A DNA stretch of 34,064 nucleotides from Oligoflexales bacterium (GTDB lineage: Bacteria; Bdellovibrionota_B; Oligoflexia; Oligoflexales; RGVZ01). Shown one piece after another: positions 13,066 through 33,908 of this stretch. Below the pieces are notes generated by a model. That model saw only the letters and a program-made list of their open reading frames with translations, ran no database searches and was not told where the DNA came from. A program made the translations under genes and the position numbers. The stretch covers positions 1 to 34,064 of the forward strand of contig CANJZQ010000023.1 of NCBI GenBank assembly GCA_947479535.1, written 5' to 3'. Position 1 is the stretch's first letter; each line of letters starts with the position of its first letter.

Positions 13066-13610
13066 GATTTTGTTACCCTCTTGTCCTTTTTTGCAATCAT
13101 GACGCAGGCCACGATAGCGAGAAGGATCAGGACAGAAGCAATTTCAAAAGGCCAGAGGAACGCCGTAAACATCCGCATGGCAACGACATAGGTATTACCG
13201 CCTGCCATTTCGATCGCCGCGCTGCCCAGATTTCCCGGCATTGTGAGATCGGGTGCCGTATGCGCCAGCTCCGATCCGACGATGACGAACCCGGCAAGGG
13301 TTATCAAAAGAACCAACGCCTCACCGAGGGAAAAGCGAATCCCGCGAAGGGCATCTGGCTTCAAGTTGAGGATCATGATCACAAAGACGAACAAGACCAC
13401 AATCGCCCCAGCATAGACCAGCACCTGAATCGCAGCGGTAAAATGGGCATCAAGTTGTGCATAGAGTGCCGCGACGAAAAATAAATCGACGACCAGAAAG
13501 ATGGCGCTTGTCACTGGATTGCGCGCCGCGACGACCATGATGGACGACAAAAGGATCAGCCCGGAGATGGCGTAAAAAAGCATTTCCGGAACAAAGTAAA
13601 ACGCTTCCAC
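13062..13610 (-). CDS. nuoJ: NADH-quinone oxidoreductase subunit J
   Basis: A 182-aa, five-helix membrane subunit of complex I (E. coli NuoJ has 184). The family core is VDLFFVAALYAQLDAHFTAAIQVLVYAGAIVVLFVFVIMIL, which contains the helix-3 pi-bulge region (VYAGAIVVLFVFVIML), important for coupling electron transfer to proton pumping. The GTG start overlaps the nuoH stop by one base (TAGTG), with GAGG 8 nt upstream. In many genomes nuoI, encoding the two-[4Fe-4S] subunit, sits between nuoH and nuoJ. Here it does not: the two genes are directly joined. Confidence 0.96.
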   Translation of the reverse strand: MEAFYFVPEMLFYAISGLILLSSIMVVAARNPVTSAIFLVVDLFFVAALYAQLDAHFTAAIQVLVYAGAIVVLFVFVIMILNLKPDALRGIRFSLGEALVLLITLAGFVIVGSELAHTAPDLTMPGNLGSAAIEMAGGNTYVVAMRMFTAFLWPFEIASVLILLAIVACVMIAKKDKRVTKS

Positions 13611-14722
13611 TATTTAAACCTCAACACAGCCAGCACGATAGCGGTCCCGACCACGTTGGCCAGCCCGATCGGCAGCATAAATTTCCATCCAAGGGACATG
13701 AGCTGGTCGTACCGGAACCGAGGCAACGTCCAGCGAACCCATATATAAACCCACATGAAAAAACTGGCCTTCAGGAGCAGCATCAAAATGCCTACCGGGG
13801 CCACGAAGTTGGGGGATCCCAGCATAGCCACGAGAGCATCGTAAGAAACAAAGGGCACCTGCCAGCCACCAAAGAATACGGTAGAAGCCAGACAAGACAG
13901 GACAAACATCGACACATATTCGCCCAAGAAAAAGGCCGCGAATTTTGCTGAGTTGTATTCCGTGTGAAAACCAGCGACCAGTTCACCTTCGGCCTCTGCC
14001 AGGTCAAAGGGCGCCCGGTTGGTTTCGGCGAACATGCAAATCACGAAAATCAACAGCGAGAGGGGCGCAGCAAAGACCCCCCATTGAAAAAAGGAAGTCT
14101 GCGCCTCGACGATCTTTCCCAAATCCAACGTTCCGTAAATCAAAACGATCGGGATGAGGGACATGCCCAGTGGAATTTCATAACTGATCATCTGGGCGGA
14201 AGCGCGCAATGAACCCATCAATGAATATTTATTGTTGCTGGCCCAACCTGCGAGAGAAACGCCGTACACGGCCAAACTGGAAATTGCAAAAATGAATAAA
14301 AAGCCGACGTCCATACGAACGACGCTTAAAGGTATCTTGTAACCATAAATGGTCAGATCAGGGCCGTAAGGAATGGCGCACGCCACAAGGAAGGCCGGAA
14401 ACACACAGAATACCGGCGCAAGATGATAGAAAACCTTATGCGCACCGTCGGGGACGACTTCTTCTTTAAAAATCAGTTTGACCGTATCGGCCAAGGACTG
14501 AAGAAGGCCGTAGAGGCGCCACTTGAAAATCCCGACCCGGTTTGGCCCCCGGCGCCGCTGCATCAAAGCTGGCACCCGGCGCTCGATCCACACGAGCAGC
14601 GGCGGCAACTGGAGCAAGCCTCCCACAAGGATGGCAAACTTCACAGCAAAGGCCACTAGATCAACCGTGAAGTCGTTCCACTGAAGAAGTGACGAAAAGT
14701 CGATACCAAGATTCATTCCCAT
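13610..14722 (-). CDS. nuoH: NADH-quinone oxidoreductase subunit H
   Basis: A 370-aa subunit forming the quinone-chamber base of complex I (E. coli NuoH has 325). Seen motifs are WIERRVPALMQRRRGPNRVG near the N-terminus, LQSLADTVKLIFKEEVVP, and the cytoplasmic-facing loop CMFAETNRAPFDLAEAEGELVAGFHTEYNSAKFAAFFLGEY, the signature with acidic residues lining the quinone cavity. A YDQLMSLGWKFMLPIGLANV helix closes the protein. The start is uncertain. ATG 14722 lies just after the nuoA stop with GGAG about 10 nt upstream; ATG 14716 and GTG 14746 (inside nuoA) are alternatives changing only the first few residues. Confidence 0.96.
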   Translation of the reverse strand: MGMNLGIDFSSLLQWNDFTVDLVAFAVKFAILVGGLLQLPPLLVWIERRVPALMQRRRGPNRVGIFKWRLYGLLQSLADTVKLIFKEEVVPDGAHKVFYHLAPVFCVFPAFLVACAIPYGPDLTIYGYKIPLSVVRMDVGFLFIFAISSLAVYGVSLAGWASNNKYSLMGSLRASAQMISYEIPLGMSLIPIVLIYGTLDLGKIVEAQTSFFQWGVFAAPLSLLIFVICMFAETNRAPFDLAEAEGELVAGFHTEYNSAKFAAFFLGEYVSMFVLSCLASTVFFGGWQVPFVSYDALVAMLGSPNFVAPVGILMLLLKASFFMWVYIWVRWTLPRFRYDQLMSLGWKFMLPIGLANVVGTAIVLAVLRFK

Positions 14723-14726
14723 CCGA

Positions 14727-15080
14727 TCAATCCCACTCCAGCGCACCGCGCCTCACAACGTAGATGTAACCAACCACAAGGATTAAAACGAATACTGCAA
14801 TTTCGATGATGCCCAGCCATCCCAGCTCTTTGAATGTGCGGGCCCACAAATAAAGGAAAACCGTCTCAATATCGAACAGGATGAAAAGGATTGCGGTCAG
14901 GTAGAACTTGACGCTCATTTTTTCCGAACCCGCCGTGACCTTCGGCACGCCGCACTCGTAGGGATCCATCTTTTCCCTGGAGTACTTCTTTGGACCCAAA
15001 AAGGCCGCAAGGCCGGAAAGAATTCCGCCAAGGACAACACCAAAGATTAAAACGATAATTACTGGTATATATGGATTCAT
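14727..15080 (-). CDS. nuoA: NADH-quinone oxidoreductase subunit A
   Basis: A 117-aa, three-helix subunit of complex I at the junction of the membrane and peripheral arms. The diagnostic loop KYSREKMDPYECGVPKVTAG contains the YECG motif with its conserved Glu and Cys, followed by KFYLTAILFILFDIETVFLYLWA, the second-helix signature. It is the first gene of the cluster and is divergent from gpsA with only 26 nt between the starts. The nuo promoter must therefore lie inside the start of gpsA; no clear box was recognised there. In most operons nuoB follows nuoA directly, but here nuoH does. Confidence 0.96.
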   Translation of the reverse strand: MNPYIPVIIVLIFGVVLGGILSGLAAFLGPKKYSREKMDPYECGVPKVTAGSEKMSVKFYLTAILFILFDIETVFLYLWARTFKELGWLGIIEIAVFVLILVVGYIYVVRRGALEWD

Positions 15081-15106
15081 AACCTTCTACCTTGAAGGAG
15101 AACTTG

Positions 15107-16144
15107 ATGGCCACATCTGTCACCGGCGACCGCATTCTGGTGCTCGGCGCAGGCAATTTCGGAACCTGTTTGGCCCAGCACCTTGCTGAAAAAGGCCACC
15201 ACGTAACCCTTTGGGCAAGATCGCCTGAAATCGCTGCCGGTATCAACCAAAACCGGAAAAATCCCAAATACTTGAACGCGCTTACCTTATCACCGCGAAT
15301 TGGTGCGATCAACAACATCACTGACGACTTGCTCGCAGAACATCGCATCATCGTTCTGGCAACTGCCGCACAAGCCCTAGCCCAGGTGCTTAAAAAAGTG
15401 GCAGATTTTGGCACGTCTCCAGATCACGTCATCATCTGTGCCGTAAAAGGGATCGAAATATCGACGACCCGTCTGCCAGGGGCCATCGTTTCAGATTTAT
15501 TAGGCAGTGAGGCGGGAAAAAAAGCGGTCTTTCTGTCTGGCCCTAGTTTTGCTTCTGAAGTCGCCACCCATCAACCCACCGCCGTCGTCGCAGCGAGCCA
15601 TGATGCGTCGCGCGCGCAACTTGTGCAGGCTCTTTTCCACGCACCACAATTTCGGGTCTACACGAGCGACGATCCACTAGGTGTCGAGCTTGCGGGCGCT
15701 TTAAAAAATGTGATCGCCATCGCGGCGGGAGCAGCCGTTGGCCTCGGCTTTCAAATGAATTCACGCGCTGCCTTGATCACCCGTGGGCTTGCGGAAATGC
15801 GTCGCATCGGAGTTGCCATGGGCGCAAACCCGATGACATTTGAAGGCCTCGCCGGAGTCGGCGACTTGTTCCTGACCTGCACGTCTGAAAAAAGCCGTAA
15901 TTTTCAAGTGGGCCTTCGCCTGGGCCGGGGCGAAAGGATCCAAGCCATTCTCGACAGCCTTGGCTCTGTCTCTGAAGGTTATGCCACCACCATGGCCGCC
16001 CGCGACCTCGCCCACAGGCTTGGCGTCGACGCCCCGATCACAGAGGCCGCCTATCAGGTCCTCTATGAATCCCGTCCAATCGCCCAAGCCGTCATGGGCC
16101 TTTTAACCCGCGACGCCAAACCGGAGCTCGACAGCCCCACATGA
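15107..16144 (+). CDS. gpsA: Glycerol-3-phosphate dehydrogenase [NAD(P)+]
   Basis: A 345-aa cytosolic enzyme that reduces dihydroxyacetone phosphate to sn-glycerol-3-phosphate, the head group for phospholipid synthesis. The Rossmann motif LGAGNFGT is at residues 13-20. The KGIEISTTRLPG segment and LSGPSFASEV follow, then the catalytic-lysine region ALKNVIAIAAGAAVGLG near residue 200, and the NSRAALITRGLAEM and GLAGVGDLFLTCTS blocks of the substrate domain. Length matches E. coli GpsA (339). I chose ATG 15107 because GAAGGAG is 6 nt upstream; a TTG at 15092 would lie within that site. It overlaps the cinA-like gene by four bases (ATGA). Confidence 0.96.
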   Translation: MATSVTGDRILVLGAGNFGTCLAQHLAEKGHHVTLWARSPEIAAGINQNRKNPKYLNALTLSPRIGAINNITDDLLAEHRIIVLATAAQALAQVLKKVADFGTSPDHVIICAVKGIEISTTRLPGAIVSDLLGSEAGKKAVFLSGPSFASEVATHQPTAVVAASHDASRAQLVQALFHAPQFRVYTSDDPLGVELAGALKNVIAIAAGAAVGLGFQMNSRAALITRGLAEMRRIGVAMGANPMTFEGLAGVGDLFLTCTSEKSRNFQVGLRLGRGERIQAILDSLGSVSEGYATTMAARDLAHRLGVDAPITEAAYQVLYESRPIAQAVMGLLTRDAKPELDSPT

Positions 16145-20858: not shown

Positions 20859-23072
20859 ATGAGAAAATTGACGCCCCTCGCAGAAATCCACGTTCCCACA
20901 CCGAAGGCAGACGAATGGTATCGTTTGAACTTCAATGGCTTGGATCACGGCTTTCTTGGGCTCAAAAAACTTCTCGGTGCTGCCGACATCAGCAAAGCTG
21001 GAGATCGTAATGCGGGGCTGGCGGCGCATTCTGAACTCGAACGCGAGGTGGCGCGCACCATTTTGTCATCATTGAGCGTGCAGCATCTGTTTGATCGCCC
21101 GTTGACCGATGATTCAGGGCTGGTGGATTCGGTGATGCGCGTCAACTATGCGATCAATCGTGATGCTTTCGCCGAAATTTCAGCACTCAGTCTTGGTGAG
21201 GTGAAAAACCTCCTGCTTCGCAGTGACGGTGCTGGGATTAAACGCATTGGCAGTGGTTTGACCGGTGTTACGGCTGCCGCCTTGGCAAAAATCATGGACA
21301 CCCATGAGCTGATTTATGTTGCACGAAAAATCGAGCACATCACCAAAGCACGCACCAGGATTGGACTTCGCAAAACCTTGGCGTCGCGCCTGCAACCCAA
21401 TCATCCAACCGATGATTTGCGCGGGATGACCTGTCTGACTTACTTGGGCCTTTCCGTAGGTTCCGGGGACGCCCTGATTGGGGTCAACCCGGCCGTTGAC
21501 ACCGTCGAAAATATTTCTGCCATCCTCGTTCACCTGGACAAGCTCCGCCGCAGCACGAAGGCACCGACCCAGATTTGCGTGCTGGGGCACATGAAAACCC
21601 AGTTGGCATGTTTGGAGGGCGGCGCACCGGTTGAAATCATGTTTCAAAGCCTTGCTGGCACAGAGCGCAGCAACCTGACCGAATTTGACATCTCGGTGGA
21701 ACTGCTGGATCTCGCCTACGTGACCATGCAGAAGAAAGGCGCTTTGGGGCCACAGGCCGAGCAGTTCATGTATTTTGAGACCGGGCAGGGTAGCGAGTTT
21801 ACCTATGGAAAACACAACGGCATCGACATGACGACCGCCGAAGCCCTGTGTTACGGGCTTGCCCGTCGCTACGACCCCTTCATGGTGAACAATGTGACTG
21901 GATTCATCGGACCAGAAACACACCTCGATAACTTTGAAATGATCGCCGCCAACCTGCAGGATCATTTCATGGGAAAACTCCTTGGATTGCCGATGGGAAT
22001 GGCCCCCTGCTACACGCTTCATTCCAAAATCGGCCTCGAAGGCCAACAGATGGCAACCGAATTGCTGACCGCGGCGGGCGCCACTTTTTTCATGGACGTT
22101 TGTTTGAACACGGACCGCATGCTCGCCTATTTTGATACGAGCGGTCACGACAACCAGACCCTGCGCGAGATTCACGACAAGGAACCTGCACCCGACTACC
22201 TTGTTTGGGCAGTGGAACGCGGAATCTTCCGGCGCAATGGCGATGGCCATCTTGTGCGCGGCGAAAACTGGGGCAACCCGCGTATGTTCTGCCAAACAAA
22301 CGCGGAGCTCGAAGACCTGCTCCGGTTGACGCCGAGCGTACCCGGCTTTTCACCCAAGAACCATGCGGGGCCGCGACCGACGAATGACGTGATGCGGGAA
22401 ATCCGCCGGCACCAAGCCGTCGGACGCGCAGCCATTCAAAGCAAACTCGATCTCGCCCGTTTAAGCAGGGTTGCTGATTTCCGCGTCGTCAAAACCAAAG
22501 CCGTCGATAAAGCCAGCCATCTCAATCATCCTGATTTTGGCGCTGAACTGGGAATTGCGATCGGTGGCGGGAATGCGACGCTGTTGACTCCAGAACACAC
22601 CGACATTCAGATTGTCGTTTCCGATGGACTCAGCGCCGATGCAGTGCATCACAATATCGATGACCTTTTCCCCATACTGCTTGCAGGATTGAAGGCCAAG
22701 GGCTTCAAGCTTGGCCAGCATATCCTTGCGCCTTACGGCCGGGTAAAACTGGCGGAGCCCATTGCCAAGGCCCTCGGCACGCGTTGTGTGATCCTTCTAA
22801 TCGGAGAAAGGCCTGGTGGCAGCGCCCTTGCCTCCCGCAGTTTGTCTGCTTATTTGGTTTATCATCTGCTTGATCAAGACGAGCAGCTAAAGGCGGCCAA
22901 GTTTAGCGGTAACGATGACATCCGCTTTGAATATTCTGTCCTGTCGAACATCTACGAGGCGGGGATTCCGGCGGTCGAAGCTGGCAGCGTCATTGTTGAA
23001 AAGATCGAACAAATACTCCGCTATCGTGCAGCAGGAAATCGCCTTGAATCCCTGATCAACCCATCGCCATGA
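20859..23072 (+). CDS. eutBC: Ethanolamine ammonia-lyase, EutB-EutC single-chain fusion
   Basis: A 737-residue protein joining both subunits of adenosylcobalamin-dependent ethanolamine ammonia-lyase (ethanolamine to acetaldehyde plus ammonia). Residues ~1-470 are EutB, a TIM-barrel catalytic subunit, with GVNPAVDTVENIS, CVLGHMKTQLAC, MFQSLAGTERSN and MYFETGQGSEFTYGKHNGIDM. Residues ~530-737 are EutC, the cobalamin-binding small subunit, with IVVSDGLSADAVHHN and LLIGERPGG, where most EutC proteins read ERPGL. A linker rich in charged residues (~475-530) joins them, uninterrupted by a stop. In the EutB part, the region equivalent to E. coli CYTNHAEADQDD reads CYTLHSKIGLEGQQ, so this is a divergent clade. 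ATG 20859 follows eutA by 10 nt. A terminator follows. Confidence 0.9.
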   Translation: MRKLTPLAEIHVPTPKADEWYRLNFNGLDHGFLGLKKLLGAADISKAGDRNAGLAAHSELEREVARTILSSLSVQHLFDRPLTDDSGLVDSVMRVNYAINRDAFAEISALSLGEVKNLLLRSDGAGIKRIGSGLTGVTAAALAKIMDTHELIYVARKIEHITKARTRIGLRKTLASRLQPNHPTDDLRGMTCLTYLGLSVGSGDALIGVNPAVDTVENISAILVHLDKLRRSTKAPTQICVLGHMKTQLACLEGGAPVEIMFQSLAGTERSNLTEFDISVELLDLAYVTMQKKGALGPQAEQFMYFETGQGSEFTYGKHNGIDMTTAEALCYGLARRYDPFMVNNVTGFIGPETHLDNFEMIAANLQDHFMGKLLGLPMGMAPCYTLHSKIGLEGQQMATELLTAAGATFFMDVCLNTDRMLAYFDTSGHDNQTLREIHDKEPAPDYLVWAVERGIFRRNGDGHLVRGENWGNPRMFCQTNAELEDLLRLTPSVPGFSPKNHAGPRPTNDVMREIRRHQAVGRAAIQSKLDLARLSRVADFRVVKTKAVDKASHLNHPDFGAELGIAIGGGNATLLTPEHTDIQIVVSDGLSADAVHHNIDDLFPILLAGLKAKGFKLGQHILAPYGRVKLAEPIAKALGTRCVILLIGERPGGSALASRSLSAYLVYHLLDQDEQLKAAKFSGNDDIRFEYSVLSNIYEAGIPAVEAGSVIVEKIEQILRYRAAGNRLESLINPSP

Positions 23073-23106: not shown

Positions 23107-23139
23107 GGGGTAAGGGCCAAAACCCTCTACCCCTTTTTT
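23107..23139 (+). terminator. Rho-independent terminator of trhO-eutA-eutBC
   Basis: The stem pairs GGGGTA (23107-23112) with TACCCC (23128-23133), extended inward by GGG (23114-23116) with CCC (23123-23125) across a small bulge, with a CCAAAA loop and six T residues (23134-23139). It starts 35 nt after the eutBC stop. Its 3' half is also the last codons of the convergent flavoprotein gene. Confidence 0.85.
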
Positions 23140-24125
23140 GTAAACCCAACGAAACGCGCAATGATGGCGCCAGCCGGCTCGATTTTATCGATGCCGTCGA
23201 CGCTTTTTCCTGCCTGCCAAAAGTCCTTGTAGGCCGAACCCCTCTGCAGAGATCGTTTCAGCTGCCAGATCGACTTCAACGTGTAAAACATGCGCATCCA
23301 GTGCTTGGTGCGCGAGTTTTTGAGCAACCACCGCGCAACCGGACCAGCACGAAGGCCCATGCGCGCGATAAAGGGCGTGTTGATCACCGATACCGGCACT
23401 CCGCTGATCTTGTCGGTGGCCACAATGTCGGCGGACGTCGCCTTCAGGATCGCGTCTTTGTAGTCCTGGTGGGTCTTGCATTCGGTCGCAGCAATGAAAC
23501 GGGTCCCCATCTGAACCCCGGCGTAACCCATTTCCAGGGACCTGGCGAAGTCCTGTTCGTTGCCAATGCCTCCTGCGCAGATCAGGGGCTTGCCGAAATC
23601 ACGAAGCGTCTCCACGAGGCGTTCGGGGCTTTCCGCGCCCAGGTGCCCACCAGCGCGATTGTTCACACAGATGAGCCCGTCGATCCCGCCCTCAAGGGCC
23701 TTCTCAGCCCACTTCCGGTCGACGACATCGTGGTAGACGACTCCACCCAAGGGCTTCACCCGGTCAACCACCCAGCGTGGATTGCCGAGGGCTGTGATGA
23801 AAAAACGAACACCTTCCTCCAAGGCGATGTCCAACCAGGCCTTCATCCGGTCCTCGTAACGCTTGGACGATTTTTCAACCAGAAGGTTGAAGCCGACCGG
23901 TTTCGAGGTCAAGGTACGGATATGACGGATGCCCTCACGAAAATCCCATCCATGCACATAAACCAATGATATCGGCTGGATAATACCGATTCCGCCGGCC
24001 TCCGATGCGGCAGCAACGAGCTCTGGATTGCTGCAGGGGTACATGGCTCCGCAAATAATCGGGTAGGCTATCTTTGCATGACGGGTAAAATCAGTTTCAA
24101 GATTAACGGTTTTTTGGTCCAACAT
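23127..24125 (-). CDS. Nitronate monooxygenase / NAD(P)H-dependent flavin oxidoreductase family
   Basis: A 332-aa FMN-dependent TIM-barrel protein of the 2-nitropropane dioxygenase family. Seen features are YPIICGAMYPCSNPELVAAA and GGIGII at the N-terminus, VGFNLLVE, the NNRAGGHLG loop with the conserved catalytic-type histidine, and the phosphate-binding ICAGGIGN and MGYAGVQMGTRFIA motifs. Members oxidise alkyl nitronates or act as quinone or enoyl reductases, so the exact substrate is unknown. The start is doubtful. ATG 24125 gives a normal family N-terminus with only a distant GGGAG (11 nt). A far better Shine-Dalgarno and ATG lie 47 nt upstream but out of frame (see the next feature). The 3' end carries the eut terminator on the opposite strand. 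Confidence 0.85.
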   Translation of the reverse strand: MLDQKTVNLETDFTRHAKIAYPIICGAMYPCSNPELVAAASEAGGIGIIQPISLVYVHGWDFREGIRHIRTLTSKPVGFNLLVEKSSKRYEDRMKAWLDIALEEGVRFFITALGNPRWVVDRVKPLGGVVYHDVVDRKWAEKALEGGIDGLICVNNRAGGHLGAESPERLVETLRDFGKPLICAGGIGNEQDFARSLEMGYAGVQMGTRFIAATECKTHQDYKDAILKATSADIVATDKISGVPVSVINTPFIARMGLRAGPVARWLLKNSRTKHWMRMFYTLKSIWQLKRSLQRGSAYKDFWQAGKSVDGIDKIEPAGAIIARFVGFTKKG

Positions 24126-24231: not shown

Positions 24232-26073
24232 ATGGCAAAGCCAACCAGACAAATCACGACCAGCAGCACTGCTGAATATTTTTCTAAAAACCTGCAGCAG
24301 GTTGGTTTTTCTTCTCCGACCAAGGCGGTTTTGACGACCGTCAAAGAGGCGCTGGACAACGCCCTTGATGCTTGTGAGGATCACGGAATTGCCCCCGATT
24401 TGAACGTCTCCGTGGAGAAAGTCGGCAATGGCTCTCTGAAGAACACCGATCGCATCCGGATACGGGTCGAGGACAATGGTCCTGGGATCGACCCTGGAGA
24501 CATTGCGAAGGTCTTTGGCGAATACCTGGCATCATCAAAATTTGGCAGGGGACGCTGTTCCCGCGGCCAACAAGGCATCGGCATTTCAGCGGCTACGACT
24601 TGGGCCATCCAGACCACGGCCAAGGGCGTCACCGTGACCACAAAAACCAAAGGCCAGAAAAAGGCCGTCAAGTGCCTGGTCGAAGTCGACATCAAACACA
24701 ACAAAGGCATCATCCGTGAAAAAGAAACCGTCGACTGGGACCGCCCTTCGGGGACTGCCGTCGAGTTCCTTATCGATGGCCGTGTTCAGCTCAATGGTGA
24801 AGCGGGCCTCGTAAATTATTTGCGGGGCAATGTCCTGGTGAACCCTCATATGAGCATCACCTACACCCTCCCCGAAAGTGGCACGACTAGAATCGAGCGG
24901 GTCACGAAAGATGTCCCGGAAATTCCTGAAGCCATCGAACCGCACCCGCACACAATGAAACTCGGGGAATTCATTTCCCACGCCCGGCTTTTTGGCAAAA
25001 TAAAAACTGCAAATTGGTTGAAACAAGGTTTCTCTCGCCTTAACGACAAGGCGATTGCCGAGATCTGGAAGCAACAAAAACTGGCAAAGGCACTTCTCGA
25101 TAAAAGTGCCGATGGACTGAATGAGAAAGATCTCAGCGGAATTTACGGGGCTATTCAAAACGCCCAGCTCCAACCGCCATCGACCCAATCGGTCATGTCC
25201 ATTGGTGAGGAAGCCCTGTCACTGAGCATCCAACGCCTTGGTGACGTCGATTTCTTTTCAGTCATCAGCCGCAAACCTTGCATCTGTGACTTCAAACCGG
25301 TTCAGATTGAGGTGGCCGTCGCACGATTGAAAGACCGCCGCGGGGAAGACCACGACGAACCGGTTCAGGTTCTGCGCTTTGCCAACCGTGTGCCCCTGCA
25401 GTTTGACAAGGCCGCCTGCGCCATTGTGAAGGCCATCACGACAGTCAACTGGCGGTCTTATGGGATCAAGCAGCCGCGCGATGCACTGCCCCAGGGTCCA
25501 TACATCGTGGCAGTCAGCATGGTTTCCCCTTTCATCAAGTTCAAGAACGCATCCAAAGAAACCATCGATGCCTCGGATGAACTCGTTGAGGAAATTCGGC
25601 GGGCATTGATGCAAGCCGGCCAGAAGCTATCCCGACACATCAACCGCGAAAGCCGCGCCAACGATCACGAAACGAAAATCGCCCACATCGAGCAGTTTGG
25701 TCCGATCCTGATCGACGGGCTCATTCGCCTGACCAAGGCAGATGAAAAACGCCGTGTGAACGCCACCGAAGGCCTGCGTAAGCTTTTGGGTCGCGATGCC
25801 ATTGACAGCGAAAAGGCCCTAAAGGTTGCCAAAGCGCAAAGCGAGGCCTTGGATGCAAAACGGCATCGGATCAAAATGTTCCGCGAAGAGGACCAGGAGA
25901 TGGAATCGCGCGAGGCACAGAAAATTGCCAATGCTGAGGCCGAAGCTGCAGCAGATGAGATGGCAGAAGACACCGATGGTGACGTTGCCGTCGTAACTTC
26001 GAAGGCGAAAGCCACAGCTAAAAACAAAATGAAACCCGCTGCCAAGCAGGTTAAAAAAACCGCCAAGAAGTAA
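24232..26073 (+). CDS. top6B: DNA topoisomerase VI subunit B
   Basis: The 613-aa ATPase subunit of a type IIB topoisomerase, which with Top6A makes ATP-dependent double-strand passages to relax and decatenate DNA. The GHKL fold is plain: N-box EALDNALDA (E39, N43), G1 box EDNGPGID at 80-87, and the ATP lid GRGRCSRGQQGIGISA at 105-120. The helix-two-turn-helix-like middle follows (~255-310), then a transducer with GPYIVAVSMVSPFIKFKNAS. Archaeal Top6B has about 530 residues. The excess is a C-terminal coiled-coil, acidic patch and lysine/alanine-rich tail (residues ~553-613). ATG 24232 is chosen for GAGGA 5 nt upstream; a frame from 24154 adds 26 unsupported residues. It is followed 12 nt later by top6A. 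Confidence 0.94.
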   Translation: MAKPTRQITTSSTAEYFSKNLQQVGFSSPTKAVLTTVKEALDNALDACEDHGIAPDLNVSVEKVGNGSLKNTDRIRIRVEDNGPGIDPGDIAKVFGEYLASSKFGRGRCSRGQQGIGISAATTWAIQTTAKGVTVTTKTKGQKKAVKCLVEVDIKHNKGIIREKETVDWDRPSGTAVEFLIDGRVQLNGEAGLVNYLRGNVLVNPHMSITYTLPESGTTRIERVTKDVPEIPEAIEPHPHTMKLGEFISHARLFGKIKTANWLKQGFSRLNDKAIAEIWKQQKLAKALLDKSADGLNEKDLSGIYGAIQNAQLQPPSTQSVMSIGEEALSLSIQRLGDVDFFSVISRKPCICDFKPVQIEVAVARLKDRRGEDHDEPVQVLRFANRVPLQFDKAACAIVKAITTVNWRSYGIKQPRDALPQGPYIVAVSMVSPFIKFKNASKETIDASDELVEEIRRALMQAGQKLSRHINRESRANDHETKIAHIEQFGPILIDGLIRLTKADEKRRVNATEGLRKLLGRDAIDSEKALKVAKAQSEALDAKRHRIKMFREEDQEMESREAQKIANAEAEAAADEMAEDTDGDVAVVTSKAKATAKNKMKPAAKQVKKTAKK

Positions 26074-26085
26074 CAGGAGTCATCC

Positions 26086-27267
26086 ATGGCCACACGCACG
26101 ACTGGCGGCAACCCGCACCGCAAGAGCAAAGAAGATAAAGTCATCTTGGAACACAGCCTTGAGCTGTGCGAAAAAATGCTGGCAGATCTTGAGAACGGCA
26201 GGCGCCCCAAGCTGACTGCGACGAAATGTGCCCTCGACAATTCCATCTACAACAGCAAAGTCGGCTTTCTCACGCCGGGATCCAAACGCGTCTCCACCGA
26301 GCTTAATGTCAGCTCTGTCAAAAAAATGTCGCGCGCCGTCTTCATGTTGGAAATTTTGCTGCGCAATATCGAGACCGGAAACGTCAACACCAAACGTGAG
26401 CTCTACTACATCAGCAAGGGCGAAGTTAAACACGGCAAAAGTCTGAAGGCTCTTGATTTTACTGATCAGGACGAATCCGATTCCGTGGTGGATTTCATCT
26501 GCGAAATGCTTGAATGCTACCGTGAAGAAATGAATTGCTTCGCCAACGACCGCGGTGGACAGACTTACAGCCAGAATCTTGTCGTGACGGAACGCATGCC
26601 GGACGGAACCGAGGCCGTGATCGACTTGTCCCAACTTGGAACGTCGCCGTTTCAGCCGAAAAACCGGCCACAGAACCTGACGCTCAAGGCAAAGAAAAAA
26701 ATCGACTTCTGCCTCGTCGTCGAGTCTGAAGGCACAGCAAATACTTTGGTGGCAAACGGCTTCGTAAAGCGGCACAACTCGATTGTCGTCGGTGCGCAAG
26801 GCGTCCCCTCAAACGCTGTACGCGGATGGGTCAAGCGCATTCAAGATCAGTTGGCGGTGCCGATCTACTTTTTCGGCGACCTTGACGCCTATACGATGCA
26901 AAACATCTTCCGGACGCTGAAGGCCGGATCCGCAGCCTCGTTGATCCGGAATTCAGATTTCTCGGCACCAGACGTGCGTTTTTTGGGGGTATTGCCTGAG
27001 GACATCAAAAAATACGACCTCAATGATTACCCGGTGAATGAGAGAGACCCGCAGGAAATTCGTGCCTTGAAAAAGGCGCGAGACGCCCTCGCAAACGACC
27101 CGTTCTTCAAGGATAAAAAGAACAAGGGGCTTGCCGAGATCCTGCACTGGCTGATCAACAACAAAAGGCGCTGTGAACAGCAGGCCTTTTATTCGGTTGA
27201 TCCCCGCGACCCGCAAATGGCCGAAAAGATCATCCTCGAAAAGATCGCAAAGGGACATTACGTTTGA
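26086..27267 (+). CDS. top6A: DNA topoisomerase VI subunit A (Spo11-like)
   Basis: The 393-aa DNA-cleaving subunit of topoisomerase VI, homologous to Spo11. The winged-helix (CAP-like) domain carries the catalytic tyrosine in TKRELYYIS, either Tyr107 or Tyr108. The Toprim domain holds VVESEG with E213 as the metal ligand and the DxD pair in GDLDAYTM (D265, D267). The Mg2+ site and active tyrosine are thus intact, so the enzyme should be active. AGGAG lies 6 nt before ATG 26086, and the stop overlaps the mfd TTG by 4 nt. Length is close to archaeal Top6A (~370-390). Confidence 0.95.
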   Translation: MATRTTGGNPHRKSKEDKVILEHSLELCEKMLADLENGRRPKLTATKCALDNSIYNSKVGFLTPGSKRVSTELNVSSVKKMSRAVFMLEILLRNIETGNVNTKRELYYISKGEVKHGKSLKALDFTDQDESDSVVDFICEMLECYREEMNCFANDRGGQTYSQNLVVTERMPDGTEAVIDLSQLGTSPFQPKNRPQNLTLKAKKKIDFCLVVESEGTANTLVANGFVKRHNSIVVGAQGVPSNAVRGWVKRIQDQLAVPIYFFGDLDAYTMQNIFRTLKAGSAASLIRNSDFSAPDVRFLGVLPEDIKKYDLNDYPVNERDPQEIRALKKARDALANDPFFKDKKNKGLAEILHWLINNKRRCEQQAFYSVDPRDPQMAEKIILEKIAKGHYV

Positions 27268-30200
27268 CCGCAATCTACGGCCTTCGCTCGTTTTTGACTC
27301 ATGCAGAAATGGGCCTTGCCCCCGCCTCTGAATCTCGGGGCGTGGTCCCCTCGCGCGCTCCCATCGTTCAGGTTACCGGGGCGTCGGACAGTTTGATCCA
27401 ACTGGCCGTCCTCGGTCTTGTTTGTCACCACCCGAAAAACCGGCGACTGATCGTTGTCTTGCCGGAATCAAAGGACGTCAGCCAGTGGTCTCAATTCCTG
27501 GACCAGGCCGTCGCGGCACTCAACACAAAGAGAGAAACCAGTTCATCAGCCAGGCTACGGGCGGCAGTTCTGCCATATTTCTCGGGCTGGGGTGCAGATC
27601 GCTACATCAATCCAGACCTGTCGCGTCGCCAAAGGGTCTACGCGATGGACCTGCTTGCCCGGACAGAGGTGCCTTCGATCCTTATCACAACCCTTCAGGC
27701 CCTTGCCCAAGCGACCATCTCACCCGGGGAGTTCAGGGAGGCCACGGTTGAATTAAAGCTCAATCAGGAGGTCGACCAGGACGAGCTTTTCAGCAAACTC
27801 GATGACCTTGGTTACCGCAAGGTTCATTCCGTCGAGGAAGAGGGCACCTACGCACCGCGTGGGGCCATTATCGACATCTATCCACCAAACGAAGATAGCC
27901 CTGCGCGCCTTGAATTTTTGGGCGACACCATCGTTTCTATGCGTCACTTTGATGCGAAGGACCAAAAATCGACGGGCTCGATGACTTCCTTGATTATCCG
28001 TCCCACTGCGGAATTCACGACACCAGCAAACAAAAAACGAGAACAAACTCAGGACCTGTACAACTGCCTTATTGAGCAGTCGGTGGAGGCAAGTGACCGT
28101 GATGGAATCATGCAAAGCTTTGGTTTGGGCATAAGGCCCTCGGGCTTTGACATGTTTGCTCCACTGATGCGACGAAACCGGCGCGCGACGGCCATTGACT
28201 ACATTCAGCCCGATGATCTCCTCGTCTTCCCGCGCCCACGCAGCAGTTGCCATGCATCGTACAAGGATTTTCTAGAGGAAATCGATGAGTCCTGGAAACG
28301 CGACATCGAAGCCAAACGCCCATCCATGGAGCCCGGACAGCATTTTACGGCGCTCGAAAAAATGTCTTTTGAAAATTCATCCCTGATTGAATTTGGAAAT
28401 CCATTTTCTGATCCTGCGGCGACAAACCTGCGTTTTGAAGCACGCATGGTCTTGGAAGGCTCACCGGTTTTCTCAAAGGAAAATCCTGTAGAACTTTTTG
28501 ACCAGTGGGTGGATGCCATTCGCTCAGTTCTGAAAAAAGAGGAAGGATCTGTTGCCATCCTGGCACACCACGAGGAGCAGCTCGACCGGATTTCAAACCT
28601 TCTAAGCCACCGGGGGCTTGCCCCCCAACGTCGTGAATCACTGCTTCGCGATATCCTTGCCGGGAAAACGGAATCTGGCAGCATCGCCCTGGGCCTGGGG
28701 GACATCCAGTCACATGTCTGGCTACAAGACACCAACACCCTGGTCCTTCCGGAACATGCCCTCTTTGGGGTGAAAAAACGCCGGCCAAAACCGCCGTCCG
28801 CCAAACTTCAAAACTACTTGAGTTCATTCCGGGATTTAAAGCCGGGCGATCTGGTGGTTCACGTCCAGCATGGAATCGGGCGCTACACGGGCATGATGAC
28901 GATGAACGTTGCCGGCCTGACCAATGACTTTCTAGTGATTGAATATTCTGGAAACGACAAGATCTACATGCCGGTAGACCGTCTGAATCTCCTGCAGCGC
29001 TATAGCTCTGGTGGTGAGGGTGGCCGGGGCACCGTGGACCGTCTTGGTGGCCAAGTATGGGAAAAGAAAAAATCCCGCATCAAGTCAGAAATTAAGGATA
29101 TGGCGGAATCGCTCCTTAAACTTCAGGCCGCCCGTGAACTCGCGGGGGCTCATCGTTACAACCCCCCCGGAGACGACTACTTTAAGCTCGAAGCCGAGTT
29201 TCCTTATGAGGAAACAGAAGACCAGCAAAAAGCCATCGATGATGTTTTTGCAGACATTGTTGGTGAGAAATCAATGGACCGTCTGATTTGTGGCGATGTT
29301 GGATTCGGAAAAACCGAAGTGGCCCTGCGTGCTGCCATGAGAGCCGTCCTTGAAGGCGACCAGGTTCTGGTTCTGGTGCCGACGACGGTCCTTTGTTACC
29401 AGCACTTCAGGACATTTTCCGATCGCCTCTCCCGCCATGGGGTAAAGGTCGGTCAGGTGAATCGCTTTGTTGACGCCAAGACGACAAAGGCCAATCTTGA
29501 TGCACTCTCCCGTGGCGACCTCGATATTCTTGTCGGGACACACCGGCTGCTTTCCAAAGACATAAAACCAAAACGACTTGGATTGCTGGTCATTGATGAA
29601 GAGCAACGCTTTGGTGTTGTTCACAAGGAAAAGCTAAAGCAATTGCGAGCCAACGCGCACGTCCTGACTCTGACCGCGACACCGATTCCGCGAACCCTTC
29701 ACATGTCGATGCTTGGCCTTCGGGACATTTCGATCATTGCGACTCCGCCGCAAGAGCGACTGTCCGTAAAAACTTACATCTGCCGCTTTGACGAAAGCCT
29801 CATCCGCGATGCGATTTTGAACGAGGTGGCCCGTGGCGGACAAGTCTTCTTCCTGCACAACCGGGTTGAAGACATCGAAGAAATGCGCCTTTTCATCAAG
29901 AGCCTTGTGCCCGGTATCGATGTCCGGACCGCCCACGGACAAATGAAGGAGCACCAGCTTGAAGAGGTCATCATTGATTTTATGGAGCAGAAATTTCCCG
30001 TACTGATTTGCACGACAATCATTGAGTCTGGCATTGACATGCCAAACGTTAATACCCTGATCGTCAATCGTGCGGAAAATTTTGGATTGGCCCAACTCTA
30101 CCAGATCCGCGGACGGGTAGGCCGTTCTTCGATGCAAGCCTACGCCTATTTCCTGACTGCCGCGGAAGACACGCTGACGGATGAAGCCAAAAAGCGCCTC

Positions 30201-30869
30201 GAAGTTCTCAGCGCACATCAGGAACTTGGAGCGGGCTTTCAGATTGCCAGCTATGACCTTGAAATCCGCGGGGCCGGGAACCTTCTCGGCGGCGACCAAT
30301 CAGGAAAAATCAGCGAAATTGGCCTGGAGCTGTACACGGACATGCTGGAAACTGCGATTGCCGAGCTGCGCGGGCAGGAGGTCGTTGAAAAAATCGACAC
30401 GGAAATAAAGCTTCCGGTTACCGCATTAATTCCGGCAACTTATATTGAAGCCGAAAACCTGCGCCTGCCACTGTACAAGTCACTGTTCTCTGCCGGCACC
30501 GAGGAAGATCTCCTGCGTCTGAAACGGGAGACTGTAGACCGGTTCGGTCCACTACCTGATGATCTAGCCCGCCTCTTCCGTGTTGCCACCTTGAAGCGGT
30601 GCCTGTCCCAAGCCAAGATGACCTCTCTGGCTGTCGGTGGGCGAAACTTCTACGAACTCAAATTTGGTACCCTGAACGAGGCCCAGATTGATACCATTTT
30701 GGATGCAGTCCGAACTCATCCCGACAAGTACCGGCTGACCCCCGACGGGAAACTATACCTTTATGCCCAGACTTTCGCCCAGCCGGCACCTGCACAGCAG
30801 GACCAAATGATCGCGGAACTGGTAACATTAGTGGATCCGTTGGCAGAAGCCATCTCGCAGAGGAACTAA
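27264..30869 (+). CDS. mfd: Transcription-repair coupling factor
   Basis: A 1201-aa SF2 translocase (E. coli Mfd has 1148). It removes stalled RNA polymerase from lesions and recruits UvrA. The N-terminal UvrB-like module lies in about 1-370, with LPYFSGWGADRYINPDLSRRQRV and the D1b/D2 region. A CarD-like RNA polymerase-interaction domain (PGDLVVHVQHGIGRYTG) lies near 527-580. Helicase motif I GDVGFGKTE starts near 677, the DEEQ box near 778, and the C-terminal motifs TTIIESGIDMPNVNTLIV and QIRGRVGR follow, then the TRCF C-terminal domain. The start TTG 27264 overlaps the top6A stop (TTGA); no strong Shine-Dalgarno is seen and a later ATG at 27312 is possible. It probably shares a transcript with topoisomerase VI. 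Confidence 0.96.
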   Translation: MTAIYGLRSFLTHAEMGLAPASESRGVVPSRAPIVQVTGASDSLIQLAVLGLVCHHPKNRRLIVVLPESKDVSQWSQFLDQAVAALNTKRETSSSARLRAAVLPYFSGWGADRYINPDLSRRQRVYAMDLLARTEVPSILITTLQALAQATISPGEFREATVELKLNQEVDQDELFSKLDDLGYRKVHSVEEEGTYAPRGAIIDIYPPNEDSPARLEFLGDTIVSMRHFDAKDQKSTGSMTSLIIRPTAEFTTPANKKREQTQDLYNCLIEQSVEASDRDGIMQSFGLGIRPSGFDMFAPLMRRNRRATAIDYIQPDDLLVFPRPRSSCHASYKDFLEEIDESWKRDIEAKRPSMEPGQHFTALEKMSFENSSLIEFGNPFSDPAATNLRFEARMVLEGSPVFSKENPVELFDQWVDAIRSVLKKEEGSVAILAHHEEQLDRISNLLSHRGLAPQRRESLLRDILAGKTESGSIALGLGDIQSHVWLQDTNTLVLPEHALFGVKKRRPKPPSAKLQNYLSSFRDLKPGDLVVHVQHGIGRYTGMMTMNVAGLTNDFLVIEYSGNDKIYMPVDRLNLLQRYSSGGEGGRGTVDRLGGQVWEKKKSRIKSEIKDMAESLLKLQAARELAGAHRYNPPGDDYFKLEAEFPYEETEDQQKAIDDVFADIVGEKSMDRLICGDVGFGKTEVALRAAMRAVLEGDQVLVLVPTTVLCYQHFRTFSDRLSRHGVKVGQVNRFVDAKTTKANLDALSRGDLDILVGTHRLLSKDIKPKRLGLLVIDEEQRFGVVHKEKLKQLRANAHVLTLTATPIPRTLHMSMLGLRDISIIATPPQERLSVKTYICRFDESLIRDAILNEVARGGQVFFLHNRVEDIEEMRLFIKSLVPGIDVRTAHGQMKEHQLEEVIIDFMEQKFPVLICTTIIESGIDMPNVNTLIVNRAENFGLAQLYQIRGRVGRSSMQAYAYFLTAAEDTLTDEAKKRLEVLSAHQELGAGFQIASYDLEIRGAGNLLGGDQSGKISEIGLELYTDMLETAIAELRGQEVVEKIDTEIKLPVTALIPATYIEAENLRLPLYKSLFSAGTEEDLLRLKRETVDRFGPLPDDLARLFRVATLKRCLSQAKMTSLAVGGRNFYELKFGTLNEAQIDTILDAVRTHPDKYRLTPDGKLYLYAQTFAQPAPAQQDQMIAELVTLVDPLAEAISQRN

Positions 30870-30872
30870 CCC

Positions 30873-31883
30873 ATGACCGGAAGCCCCATGAAGCGACGCC
30901 TGATCACTGGCGGCATTTGTTTTACCGGGGGAGTGGCGGTGTGGCTTGCCATCAACGGTCACAAAATTTCTGAAGTGAGGGATCGCGACATCCCCTCCTT
31001 TGACAACCTCGATCGCGGATCGATTCTGGTCGAGGTTGCAGACACGCCGATCAATAGCGATGACCTTGAGTGGGAATACAACCTTCATACCAAGGGAATG
31101 ACCGGAGCCGGCGAAATGACGCCCATCCCGGATTTGGGCAGCAAGTTGGAGAAGGAACTAAGCCCACTCAAACAAAGCCTTTTGGCTGGAATGATCGAGC
31201 GCAAACTACTGTTTAAGTACCTCCAGCAAGACCGTAAATTTGACTTGGAAGACCCTTCACGTTTCACATCCTGCCTTAAGGAATGGCAGGTTGCCTTGGA
31301 ATCAAGCCCGGAACTTTTCCAGTCAAATCACTCAAAAGAATTGCTCAAGAATCGCCTTTGCGAGCGTTCCATCATCCTTCAATACACTGAAGCCAGAATC
31401 TTTCCCTTGGCTGTGGCCACCGATGCGCAAATCACCGAATACTATAAAAATCATCAGCCCGAATTCAGATATCCACCCCGGGCAACAATACACCAGGTGG
31501 TTTTAGCCGACGAACCAACCGCTAAAAAGATCAAGCGAGAAATCAACCAGCACAACTTTCAAGCCATGGCCCGACAGCACTCCATCACGCCGGAAGGCGC
31601 GAGCGATGGTGGGAAGGTTGGACCTTTTGCAAAGGGCGAAGTCCCTGCTGTTTTTGACGTGTCATTTGAGATGCAACCAGGTCAAATCAGTGAGATTCTG
31701 AAGTCGACATACGGATTCCACATAATTATGCTCCAAGACAAGCGGCCGAGGCACGAGCTAAGTCTCAAAGAAGCCACCCCGAAAATCCGGGCCATCGTGA
31801 CCGCGAAACGCAAGGAAGAGGAATACCGAAAATGGCTCGAGGCCGCACTCAACGCAATTCCAATCACATCCCCTCGATCATAA
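30873..31883 (+). CDS. PpiC-type peptidyl-prolyl cis-trans isomerase, membrane-anchored
   Basis: A 336-aa periplasmic parvulin. The N-terminus MTGSPMKRRLITGGICFTGGVAVWLAI is a positively charged hydrophobic anchor or signal. A helical SurA-N-like chaperone region spans ~45-170. The PpiC domain lies at about 197-290: IHQVVLADEPTAKKI, a GGKVGPFAKGEVPAVFDVSFEMQPGQISEILKSTYGFHII stretch and a final helix, close to the canonical parvulin pattern. It likely helps outer-membrane or secreted proteins fold. GAGG lies 9 nt before ATG 30873, and the mfd stop is 3 nt upstream. An internal ATG at 30888 (MKRRL) would also give a normal signal. The next gene overlaps its 3' end by 52 nt. Confidence 0.88.
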   Translation: MTGSPMKRRLITGGICFTGGVAVWLAINGHKISEVRDRDIPSFDNLDRGSILVEVADTPINSDDLEWEYNLHTKGMTGAGEMTPIPDLGSKLEKELSPLKQSLLAGMIERKLLFKYLQQDRKFDLEDPSRFTSCLKEWQVALESSPELFQSNHSKELLKNRLCERSIILQYTEARIFPLAVATDAQITEYYKNHQPEFRYPPRATIHQVVLADEPTAKKIKREINQHNFQAMARQHSITPEGASDGGKVGPFAKGEVPAVFDVSFEMQPGQISEILKSTYGFHIIMLQDKRPRHELSLKEATPKIRAIVTAKRKEEEYRKWLEAALNAIPITSPRS

Positions 31884-32827
31884 CTGCTGGCGCCTTGCTG
31901 GTATTTCAGATCTCACCGGCAAATGCTGCAGAGGTATTGGTGGATCGGGTCCTCGGTTCGGTAAATGGGCAACCTTTTCTTTACAGTGATGTTGCCACCA
32001 AAGTCCAAAGTGGTCCCCTCATTACAGTTTCCGAGTTTCCAGCAACGGAACAGTCGCCTCCTTTTGAGAAGGCCATGCAGGACATCATCAATTTCCAGCT
32101 GATCCAACAAAAGGCCAAAGAACTGGACCTTGATGTGGCAGACGACGAACTAGAATCCGAGATCGCAGATTTTTTGAGCAGCAAGGGCCTCGATAAGCGA
32201 GGCTTGCAGTCCTTTCTCTCAAAGGAAAATAAAAGCTACGAAGAGTACAAGCAGGATTTCCGCAATCAAATCATCTTGGGGCGGTTTCAGCGCCGGGTTA
32301 TTGCTCCGTTGATCAAAGTGACTGATAGAGACCTTGAGACCGCATACATGAAACGCTCTGGTGCCGCATCGGATCTGGTTGAAATCACCCTCCGGCAAAT
32401 TTCAATTCAGATCCCTGATGGGTCTGGGCAGGTCATAACTGAGGCAAAGCGGGCCCTTGCTCGCGAGGCCCGCAGTAAGATCGATGCCGGTGTTCCGTTT
32501 GAGGACGCAGTAAAACTCTATTCTGACGATCGCCAAAAAGCCGCCAATGGTGGACTCTTGGAAGCGGTCCGCCTAAAAGACTTGGCGCCAACCATCCGCA
32601 AGGAGATTGAGCGACTAGATACTGGAGGGGTGACGCCACCCATTGAAATTTCTTCCAGTATCCTGATCTTCAAGGTCGAAGACAGGAAGGTGTCATTGGG
32701 TAAGGACATGCAGAAAAAAAGAGCAGAGCTCGAGGCCGAGATTCGCAACGCCGAACTTGCCAATCAAACCCGACGCTGGCTTTCGGAGCAGCGTCAACGT
32801 TCAAAAATTGAAATTATCGCAAAGTAG
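31832..32827 (+). CDS. SurA-like periplasmic chaperone / isomerase
   Basis: A 331-aa secreted SurA-family protein. The signal peptide (ITAGALLVFQISPANA) would be cleaved after ANA at about residue 32, giving AEVLVDRVLGSVNGQPFLYSDV. This is the usual SurA N-domain opening, with a conserved VNGxPI-type beginning. The helical N-domain runs to ~170, and a single parvulin domain lies at about 186-290, with ANGGLLEAVRLKDLAPTIRKEI and GGVTPPIE. E. coli SurA has two parvulin domains and 428 residues, so this is a shorter one-domain version. It probably guides outer-membrane proteins. Its start is 52 nt inside the upstream isomerase gene. Its stop overlaps the convergent permease gene by 14 nt. Confidence 0.85.
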   Translation: MARGRTQRNSNHIPSIITAGALLVFQISPANAAEVLVDRVLGSVNGQPFLYSDVATKVQSGPLITVSEFPATEQSPPFEKAMQDIINFQLIQQKAKELDLDVADDELESEIADFLSSKGLDKRGLQSFLSKENKSYEEYKQDFRNQIILGRFQRRVIAPLIKVTDRDLETAYMKRSGAASDLVEITLRQISIQIPDGSGQVITEAKRALAREARSKIDAGVPFEDAVKLYSDDRQKAANGGLLEAVRLKDLAPTIRKEIERLDTGGVTPPIEISSSILIFKVEDRKVSLGKDMQKKRAELEAEIRNAELANQTRRWLSEQRQRSKIEIIAK

Positions 32828-33908
32828 TCTTAGCCCGCCAACCATCCCAGAGCACGATGGCTAACAAAACGATGTTAGCGGCCCAAGCGCTAATCAAGGG
32901 TGACAAGTTGCCGCGCCGTCCAAGGGCAAGAAAAGAATTGAGAAGAACCCAGTAGCTCATCCCGATGCCAAGGGCCAATAAAGTGCTCTTTGCCGTTTCA
33001 GCGGAGCGTTCTGAACTAAACATGAATTTAAGGCCAAGAAGGCTCACCACGAGGCAGGCGAAAGGAAAAGCCAACTTCACATGGTAGTCAACCTTGAGTG
33101 GCAAAATGTCACGTCCCGAATTCTCCTCGCCATTAATCTGTGATCGCAGTTCTCTCCGACTCATCTCACTCGGCATGCGTCTTTCTTTTTGCAATTTTTG
33201 AACATCGACTGGGATGTGTATCAGCAATTTATCCTGACGGTCGTGCTGCCTGACATTGCCTTGGTCATCAAAACCCATGATTGAAACATCGCTAAGCAAC
33301 CACATGGAATCCTTACCGGTATTCTTTGCAGAGGCAGCTTCCATGGCTTGATCTGGGGTAAAGTCCGGACGAATTCGCGAGACCCTAAGCTGCTGAAAAG
33401 CCTGCAGTTCCGGGTCATATTTCCCAAAATTATAAATCATATTCCCTTGACGCAGCCAGCTCACGCCCTGGGCAATCTCAAAAGATGGGACGCCCTCAAT
33501 TTGAACCTCTTGAACATAATGGACCCGACCAGCAGTAACGGGGATCACATACTCGTTAAGCACCCAACCGGCCAAGGTCAGCAACAAACCACCCGCGAAA
33601 AGAGGCGCCCCAATTCGCATAGGCCCCATTCCAACAGCACGCATTGCGGTCAATTCATTGGTGCGACCGAGCAGCAGCATGCAGGTAACAGAAGCCAAAA
33701 GCGCAGCAATTGGCATCGCCTGCAAAATATGGCTCGGCATTTGGTAGAGATACATTTTCAAAACCAGCCCGGCAGAAGGCTTGTAGCGGGGAAAATACCG
33801 GGTCGTTCTGTGGATGAAATCAAACAGAACAAACAGGAACAACGTCAGGAACATCGCTCCCGCGACGTACTTGAAAAAATCCCTGAGAATATAGTTAAAA
33901 AGACGCAA
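32814..33908 (-). CDS. LptF/LptG family permease
   Basis: A 364-aa inner-membrane permease of the YjgP/YjgQ family, which with LptB2 and LptC extracts lipopolysaccharide and drives it to the outer membrane. The opening MRLFNYILRDFFKYVAGAMFLTLFLFVLFD matches LptG/LptF. Then come a second helix region with MPSHILQAMPIAALLASVTCMLLLGRTNELTAMRAVGMG, the coupling helix, a periplasmic beta-jellyroll domain (~130-255), and three C-terminal helices (KLAFPFACLVVSLLGL onward). I cannot firmly decide between LptF and LptG. The start is TTG 33908, fixed by the family N-terminus; a CAGG lies upstream but is weak. The partial gene before it on the same strand ends 29 nt away. Confidence 0.9.
   Translation of the reverse strand: MRLFNYILRDFFKYVAGAMFLTLFLFVLFDFIHRTTRYFPRYKPSAGLVLKMYLYQMPSHILQAMPIAALLASVTCMLLLGRTNELTAMRAVGMGPMRIGAPLFAGGLLLTLAGWVLNEYVIPVTAGRVHYVQEVQIEGVPSFEIAQGVSWLRQGNMIYNFGKYDPELQAFQQLRVSRIRPDFTPDQAMEAASAKNTGKDSMWLLSDVSIMGFDDQGNVRQHDRQDKLLIHIPVDVQKLQKERRMPSEMSRRELRSQINGEENSGRDILPLKVDYHVKLAFPFACLVVSLLGLKFMFSSERSAETAKSTLLALGIGMSYWVLLNSFLALGRRGNLSPLISAWAANIVLLAIVLWDGWRAKTTLR

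Follow-up and report, generated by a model that had tools for sequence, protein, structure and literature searches.

A bacterial topoisomerase VI encoded directly before mfd: probable replacement of topoisomerase IV and a probably positional gene linkage

Topoisomerase VI (topo VI) is familiar chiefly from archaea and plants. Why does a bacterium of the Oligoflexales encode both of its subunits, and why directly in front of mfd, the gene for the transcription-repair coupling factor? The locus lies in a stretch of 34,064 nucleotides (contig CANJZQ010000023.1 of assembly GCA_947479535.1; hereafter the window), and a preliminary description had read the pairing with mfd as a sign that the enzyme relieves topological stress around stalled transcription or repair. 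We favour, and hold to be probable, another answer: the enzyme would serve as a decatenase and relaxase that replaces topoisomerase IV (topo IV), would have been largely inherited within the group, and would be linked to mfd by position rather than by function.

The first gene of the pair, top6B (24232-26073, + strand), encodes topo VI subunit B, a protein of 613 residues that, in the ORF reading, starts at an ATG preceded by GAGGAA and that matches NF003218 (491 bits, above the cut-off), PF09239 (152 bits) and PF02518. Its layout comprises a GHKL ATPase, an H2TH domain, a transducer and a tail of ~115 residues with a Lys/Ala-rich end. Alignment with solved topo VI chains, Top6B of M. mazei and of S. 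shibatae, revealed that the ATPase motifs, N-box and G boxes, are kept (Glu39 and Asn43 in KEALDNALDAC, DNGPGI and GQQGIGIS), as is the transducer Lys442 in FKNASKETID. After a gap of 12 nt, top6A (26086-27267, + strand) encodes the 393-residue subunit A, which scores well above the Pfam cut-offs with PF21180 (134 bits) and PF04406 (53 bits) and slightly below the cut-off of 424 bits with its best NCBIfam model, NF003335 (392 bits), and which aligns with M. jannaschii 1d3y at E=1.4e-36. In the alignment with 1d3y and 2q2e, the catalytic Tyr108 of the WHD falls in RELYYIS, and the Toprim residues fall in VVESEG (Glu213) and GDLD (Asp265 and Asp267). Both subunits carry the sequence features of type IIB enzymes, Top6A in its WHD Tyr and Toprim Glu/DxD, Top6B in its GHKL ATPase and Topo-VIb transducer. 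The adjacency with a 12-nt gap, the intact ATP-binding, Tyr, Glu and DxD residues and the completeness of a bacterial topo VI, all put forward in the preliminary description, were borne out by the ORF coordinates, by the alignments with solved chains and by the matches of both subunits to curated families, respectively. The complete enzyme is presumably active.

The C-terminal tail of Top6B (25700-26073 in the window) has counterparts across Bdellovibrionota, where it extends a median of 101 residues past the aligned core in 108 sequences (relatives include L125, L090, L079 and L064). More than one quarter of its last 70 residues are Lys or Arg in 44% of these sequences, and it is histone-H1-like in some relatives (KKTAKKKATKKK); the archaeal-type copies L113 and L114 are without this tail.

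Within the genome collection, the window is most closely related to uncultured Oligoflexales-like MAGs, several of them labelled Pseudobacteriovorax or Oligoflexus at NCBI. Top6A is carried by 30 of the 58 genomes in the GTDB phylum of the window and by 149 of the 241 genomes in the sister group, that is, the set reached through a Bdellovibrionales genome (Bdellovibrionota s.s.). Topo VI had been described as sporadic in bacteria, which is true of bacteria in general (PMC11302465) but, as these fractions attest, fails for Bdellovibrionota. Since the enzyme is widespread in the group and has already been published for Bdellovibrio bacteriovorus and other bacteria (Allen & Maxwell 2024, PMC11302465), its presence in the genome of the window is to be expected. 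A recent gain from archaea by this single genome, with the genes landing beside mfd by chance, would accord with the chiefly archaeal occurrence of topo VI and with the several transfers to bacteria that have been proposed (PMC11302465), but the large share of carriers among related genomes, the 72-81% identity of Top6A to that of other Bdellovibrionota in the loci listed and a linkage to mfd that spans three families all speak against such an event, which we consider extremely unlikely and rejected. We take the enzyme to be largely inherited within Oligoflexia-like Bdellovibrionota. The best 80 matches of a contig search were all Bdellovibrionota-like. Separately, six Bdellovibrionota genomes (G110, G114, G121, G126, G132 and G138) encode a much more archaeal-like Top6A (200-210 versus about 130 bits), apparently a separate acquisition; the two copies that were read (L113 and L114) are 31-32% identical to Top6A of the window.

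What the enzyme would do depends on the company it keeps. The genome of the window encodes a single GyrB and a single GyrA; GyrA is divided between two contig ends and bears the GyrA box QKRGGKG. ParE and ParC were found neither in this genome nor in nine other genomes of family f1, and, since the genome is 91% complete, the absence of topo IV leans also on these relatives. The survey of gyrase and topo IV proposed earlier returned the constellation that a replacement of topo IV calls for in this 91% complete genome, with gyrase present and both ParC and ParE undetected. Bacteria with topo VI are often without topo IV (PMC11302465). In the sister group we counted topo VI only in 140 genomes, topo IV only in 68, both in 2 and neither in 22, which corresponds to a p of about 1e-36 if genomes are treated as independent, but the enzymes are clumped on the GyrB tree, where independent pairs are too few and the exclusion is not significant. 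Nor is it significant in the phylum of the window, where 7 genomes have both enzymes and 20 have neither. A strong claim of mutual exclusion was therefore lowered to suggestive. Both enzymes occur in family f11, and in three of its genomes (L103, L125 and L127) one contig carries both gene pairs, with about 7-13 kb between parE-parC and top6B-top6A. The Silvanigrella-like family (f13) mostly has neither, which means that gyrase need not be accompanied by a decatenase; this family includes genomes up to 98% complete in which gyrase is the sole detected type II topoisomerase.

Mechanistically, topo VI would use ATP to pass one duplex through a double-strand break, linked to Tyr108, in another; in this way it would separate sister chromosomes and remove positive supercoils, covering the job of topo IV in a genome where gyrase alone was detected among type IIA enzymes. 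Archaeal topo VI acts preferentially in decatenation (PMC8837201), and an E. coli parE mutant is reported to be complemented by topo VI of M. mazei (unpublished data in PMC11302465), which makes replacement of topo IV the best reading. Alternatively, topo VI could be specialised in relaxing the positive supercoils that arise ahead of replication and transcription, with gyrase both supercoiling and decatenating. Gyrase alone in the Silvanigrella-like genomes indicates that it can suffice for decatenation, and the coexistence of topo IV and topo VI in the seven genomes of the phylum would also fit a dedicated relaxase, but the preference of the archaeal enzyme for decatenation (PMC8837201) and the rarity of co-occurrence in the sister group render it unlikely.

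The gene that follows, mfd (27264-30869, + strand), encodes a protein of 1201 residues that exceeds the cut-off of TIGR00580 (986 versus 800 bits) and has CarD/TRCF RID, UvrB-interaction, DEAD, Helicase_C and TRCF domains, a complete Mfd/TRCF module set with its RecG-like translocase (PF17757, PF02559, PF00270, PF00271 and PF03461). Its start codon is a TTG that overlaps the stop of top6A as TTGA (gap -4 nt), in agreement with the 4-nt overlap reported before. A mis-call of this TTG was rejected on two grounds: the four species of the genus share an identical TTGA overlap, and Mfd of another family has an ATG start and a matching N-terminus (MTSVYGY versus (M)TAVYGL in the window). The row continues past mfd, unnoticed in the preliminary description, with the genes for two peptidyl-prolyl isomerases, the first of PpiC/SurA type (30873-31883, + strand; PF00639, PF13145) and 3 nt after mfd, the second SurA-like (31832-32827, + strand; PF09312, PF13624, PF00639) and overlapping the first. 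Isomerase gene 1 lies downstream of mfd in most fetched relatives of the phylum, and isomerase gene 2 belongs to the same conserved row. A convergent gene for an lptG-like LPS export permease (32814-33908, - strand; TIGR04408, 245 bits) forms the right edge, and a nitronate monooxygenase-like gene (23127-24068, - strand; PF03060; start by homology from tblastn) is divergent from top6B. From the spacing, the proposed co-transcription with mfd is probable, and top6B, top6A, mfd and both isomerase genes likely share one transcript, the promoter of which should lie between the nitronate monooxygenase-like gene and top6B; expression of mfd would then depend on that promoter. Promoter and terminator scans gave counts equal to those of shuffled sequences and carried no information.

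When adjacency was checked in relatives, mfd was located directly downstream of top6BA in 14 of the phylum's 30 topo VI genomes, and in 5 it follows in the same orientation with an insert in between; in the others it lies on the opposite strand (1), on another contig (9) or was not detected (1). Direct and insert linkage together span three families, and the spacing, -4 nt throughout the four species of the window's genus, is +8 or +9 nt in a second family (six genomes) and, depending on the start codon, ranges from a few to about 70 nt in the third. The inserts measure about 1.1-3.7 kb and contain opposite-strand genes (f1g2, G020). Among the best 80 matches, mfd fell within the fetched flanks in 9 loci, all from the window's group, and no near top6-mfd pair turned up in the sister group, where the shortest distance on a shared contig, among the pairs listed, is 270 kb. 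With topo VI and mfd unlinked in most topo VI genomes elsewhere in Bdellovibrionota, a universal top6-mfd operon was rejected.

Gene order in the relatives suggests an origin for the linkage. Families f9 and f13 have gpsA immediately before mfd (L100, L102, L135 and L136), with a 4-nt overlap in L102; in f3, two topo IV genomes have the order gpsA-sodB-mfd (G004 is among the topo IV genomes with that order); and the nuo cluster adjoins mfd in the sister group, with nuoA beside mfd (L104, L106 and L110). Mfd is kept where top6BA is missing (L131 and L139), and a topo IV-bearing relative has an empty gpsA/mfd site with mfd intact. In the linked genomes, the window included, gpsA lies upstream of top6B, with sodB intervening in f3. 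The order in the window runs from nuoH and nuoA (13610-15080, - strand; PF00146, PF00507), divergent from gpsA and forming the left edge of the old locus, through gpsA itself (NAD glycerol-3-phosphate dehydrogenase; 15092-16144, + strand; PF07479/PF01210), a cinA-like gene and later inserts including a eut block to top6BA and mfd. (At 20859-23072, beside eutA, the large and small subunits of ethanolamine ammonia-lyase, EutB and EutC, are fused in one 737-aa ORF.) The gpsA-mfd-isomerase row of relatives has the same mfd and downstream isomerases as the window but no top6BA between gpsA and mfd. Judged from genomes without the linkage, the older order would be nuo / gpsA-mfd-isomerases, and, given that gpsA is upstream of top6B in linked genomes, placement of top6BA between gpsA and mfd in the ancestor of several related families is the simplest reading. 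Since then, the row from top6B to the second isomerase gene would have been transcribed together, with mfd relying on the promoter before top6B.

Phylogenies bear on the number of such events. On the Mfd tree, all linked genomes but one fall in one clade (SH-aLRT 92), which also holds the unlinked families f2 and f5; f8-f11 and f13 lie outside it, as does the exception, a linked f3 genome (L088) on a very long branch. The linked families are not grouped together on the Top6 tree, so repeated insertion at the gpsA/mfd junction is conceivable; a single placement is likely. Rooting the Top6 tree on the archaeal-type Bdellovibrionota copies produced a root branch of about 5 changes per column, and no root is claimed.

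A pair of genes placed into an older row is not in itself proof that topo VI and Mfd work together. The operon could nevertheless reflect function, with topo VI relaxing the supercoils that arise from stalled or displaced RNA polymerase and from Mfd translocation, and with both co-expressed for transcription-coupled repair. Such a role would suit the tight spacing kept in three families and the presence of UvrB and a UvrA-family protein, which emerged from the suggested check for UvrABC and which provide Mfd with its usual partners. Yet topo VI without mfd nearby is usual elsewhere in Bdellovibrionota, inserts with opposite-strand genes split the pair in f1g2 and G020, and mfd is equally tight behind gpsA, the gene for a lipid-precursor enzyme, in the related family f9. 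Because the upstream partner of mfd varies (gpsA or topo VI), because the genes after it encode periplasmic isomerases and because mfd is retained in genomes that have no top6BA, also at the empty site of the topo IV relative, adjacency tells little about shared function, and the proposal that topo VI acts at stalled transcription or repair is unsupported; we regard the functional operon as very unlikely. Very improbable, too, is that in the linked families topo VI is a transcription-linked topoisomerase, its level set with that of Mfd, which relieves supercoils where RNA polymerase is removed, gyrase alone decatenating.

As to the Uvr proteins themselves, the sole UvrA detected in the genus and in family f1 is divergent (about 780 bits; L144, G000:C49), and no canonical UvrA was found in the family's ten genomes; elsewhere in the phylum, genomes carry this divergent class together with canonical UvrA (about 1300-1375 bits).

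We thus return to topo VI as a probable substitute for topo IV with a probably positional tie to mfd. The locus offers an insertion for which the states before and after are both visible (gpsA / top6BA / mfd), and it illustrates that a tight conserved gene pair can come from placement and not from shared function. An order whose members have topo VI, topo IV, both or neither also constitutes a natural comparison of when a second type II topoisomerase is needed beside gyrase.

The topo VI of B. bacteriovorus and others (PMC11302465) likewise pairs Top6A with Top6B in a bacterium that has gyrase and no topo IV, and it too comes from the broad group Bdellovibrionota; the top6 pair of the window differs in standing directly before mfd, and the main text of that paper mentions neither mfd nor operons. 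Bacterial topo IV (ParC/ParE) does the work that is proposed for topo VI in the window, namely decatenation alongside gyrase, but is a type IIA enzyme with a cleavage subunit unrelated to that of topo VI, and is undetected in the genome of the window. M. mazei topo VI (2Q2E; PMC13040014) and the enzyme of the window are alike in domain order, catalytic Tyr, Toprim Glu and Asp pair, GHKL motifs and transducer Lys, and both have a WxxY motif (WRSY in the window, WKQY in M. mazei). They differ in the Toprim motif, which is GDLDAYT in the window and DGDPW in M. mazei, and at the C-terminus, where the M. mazei domain has no sequence match in the window and the protein of the window instead has its tail with a Lys/Ala-rich end.
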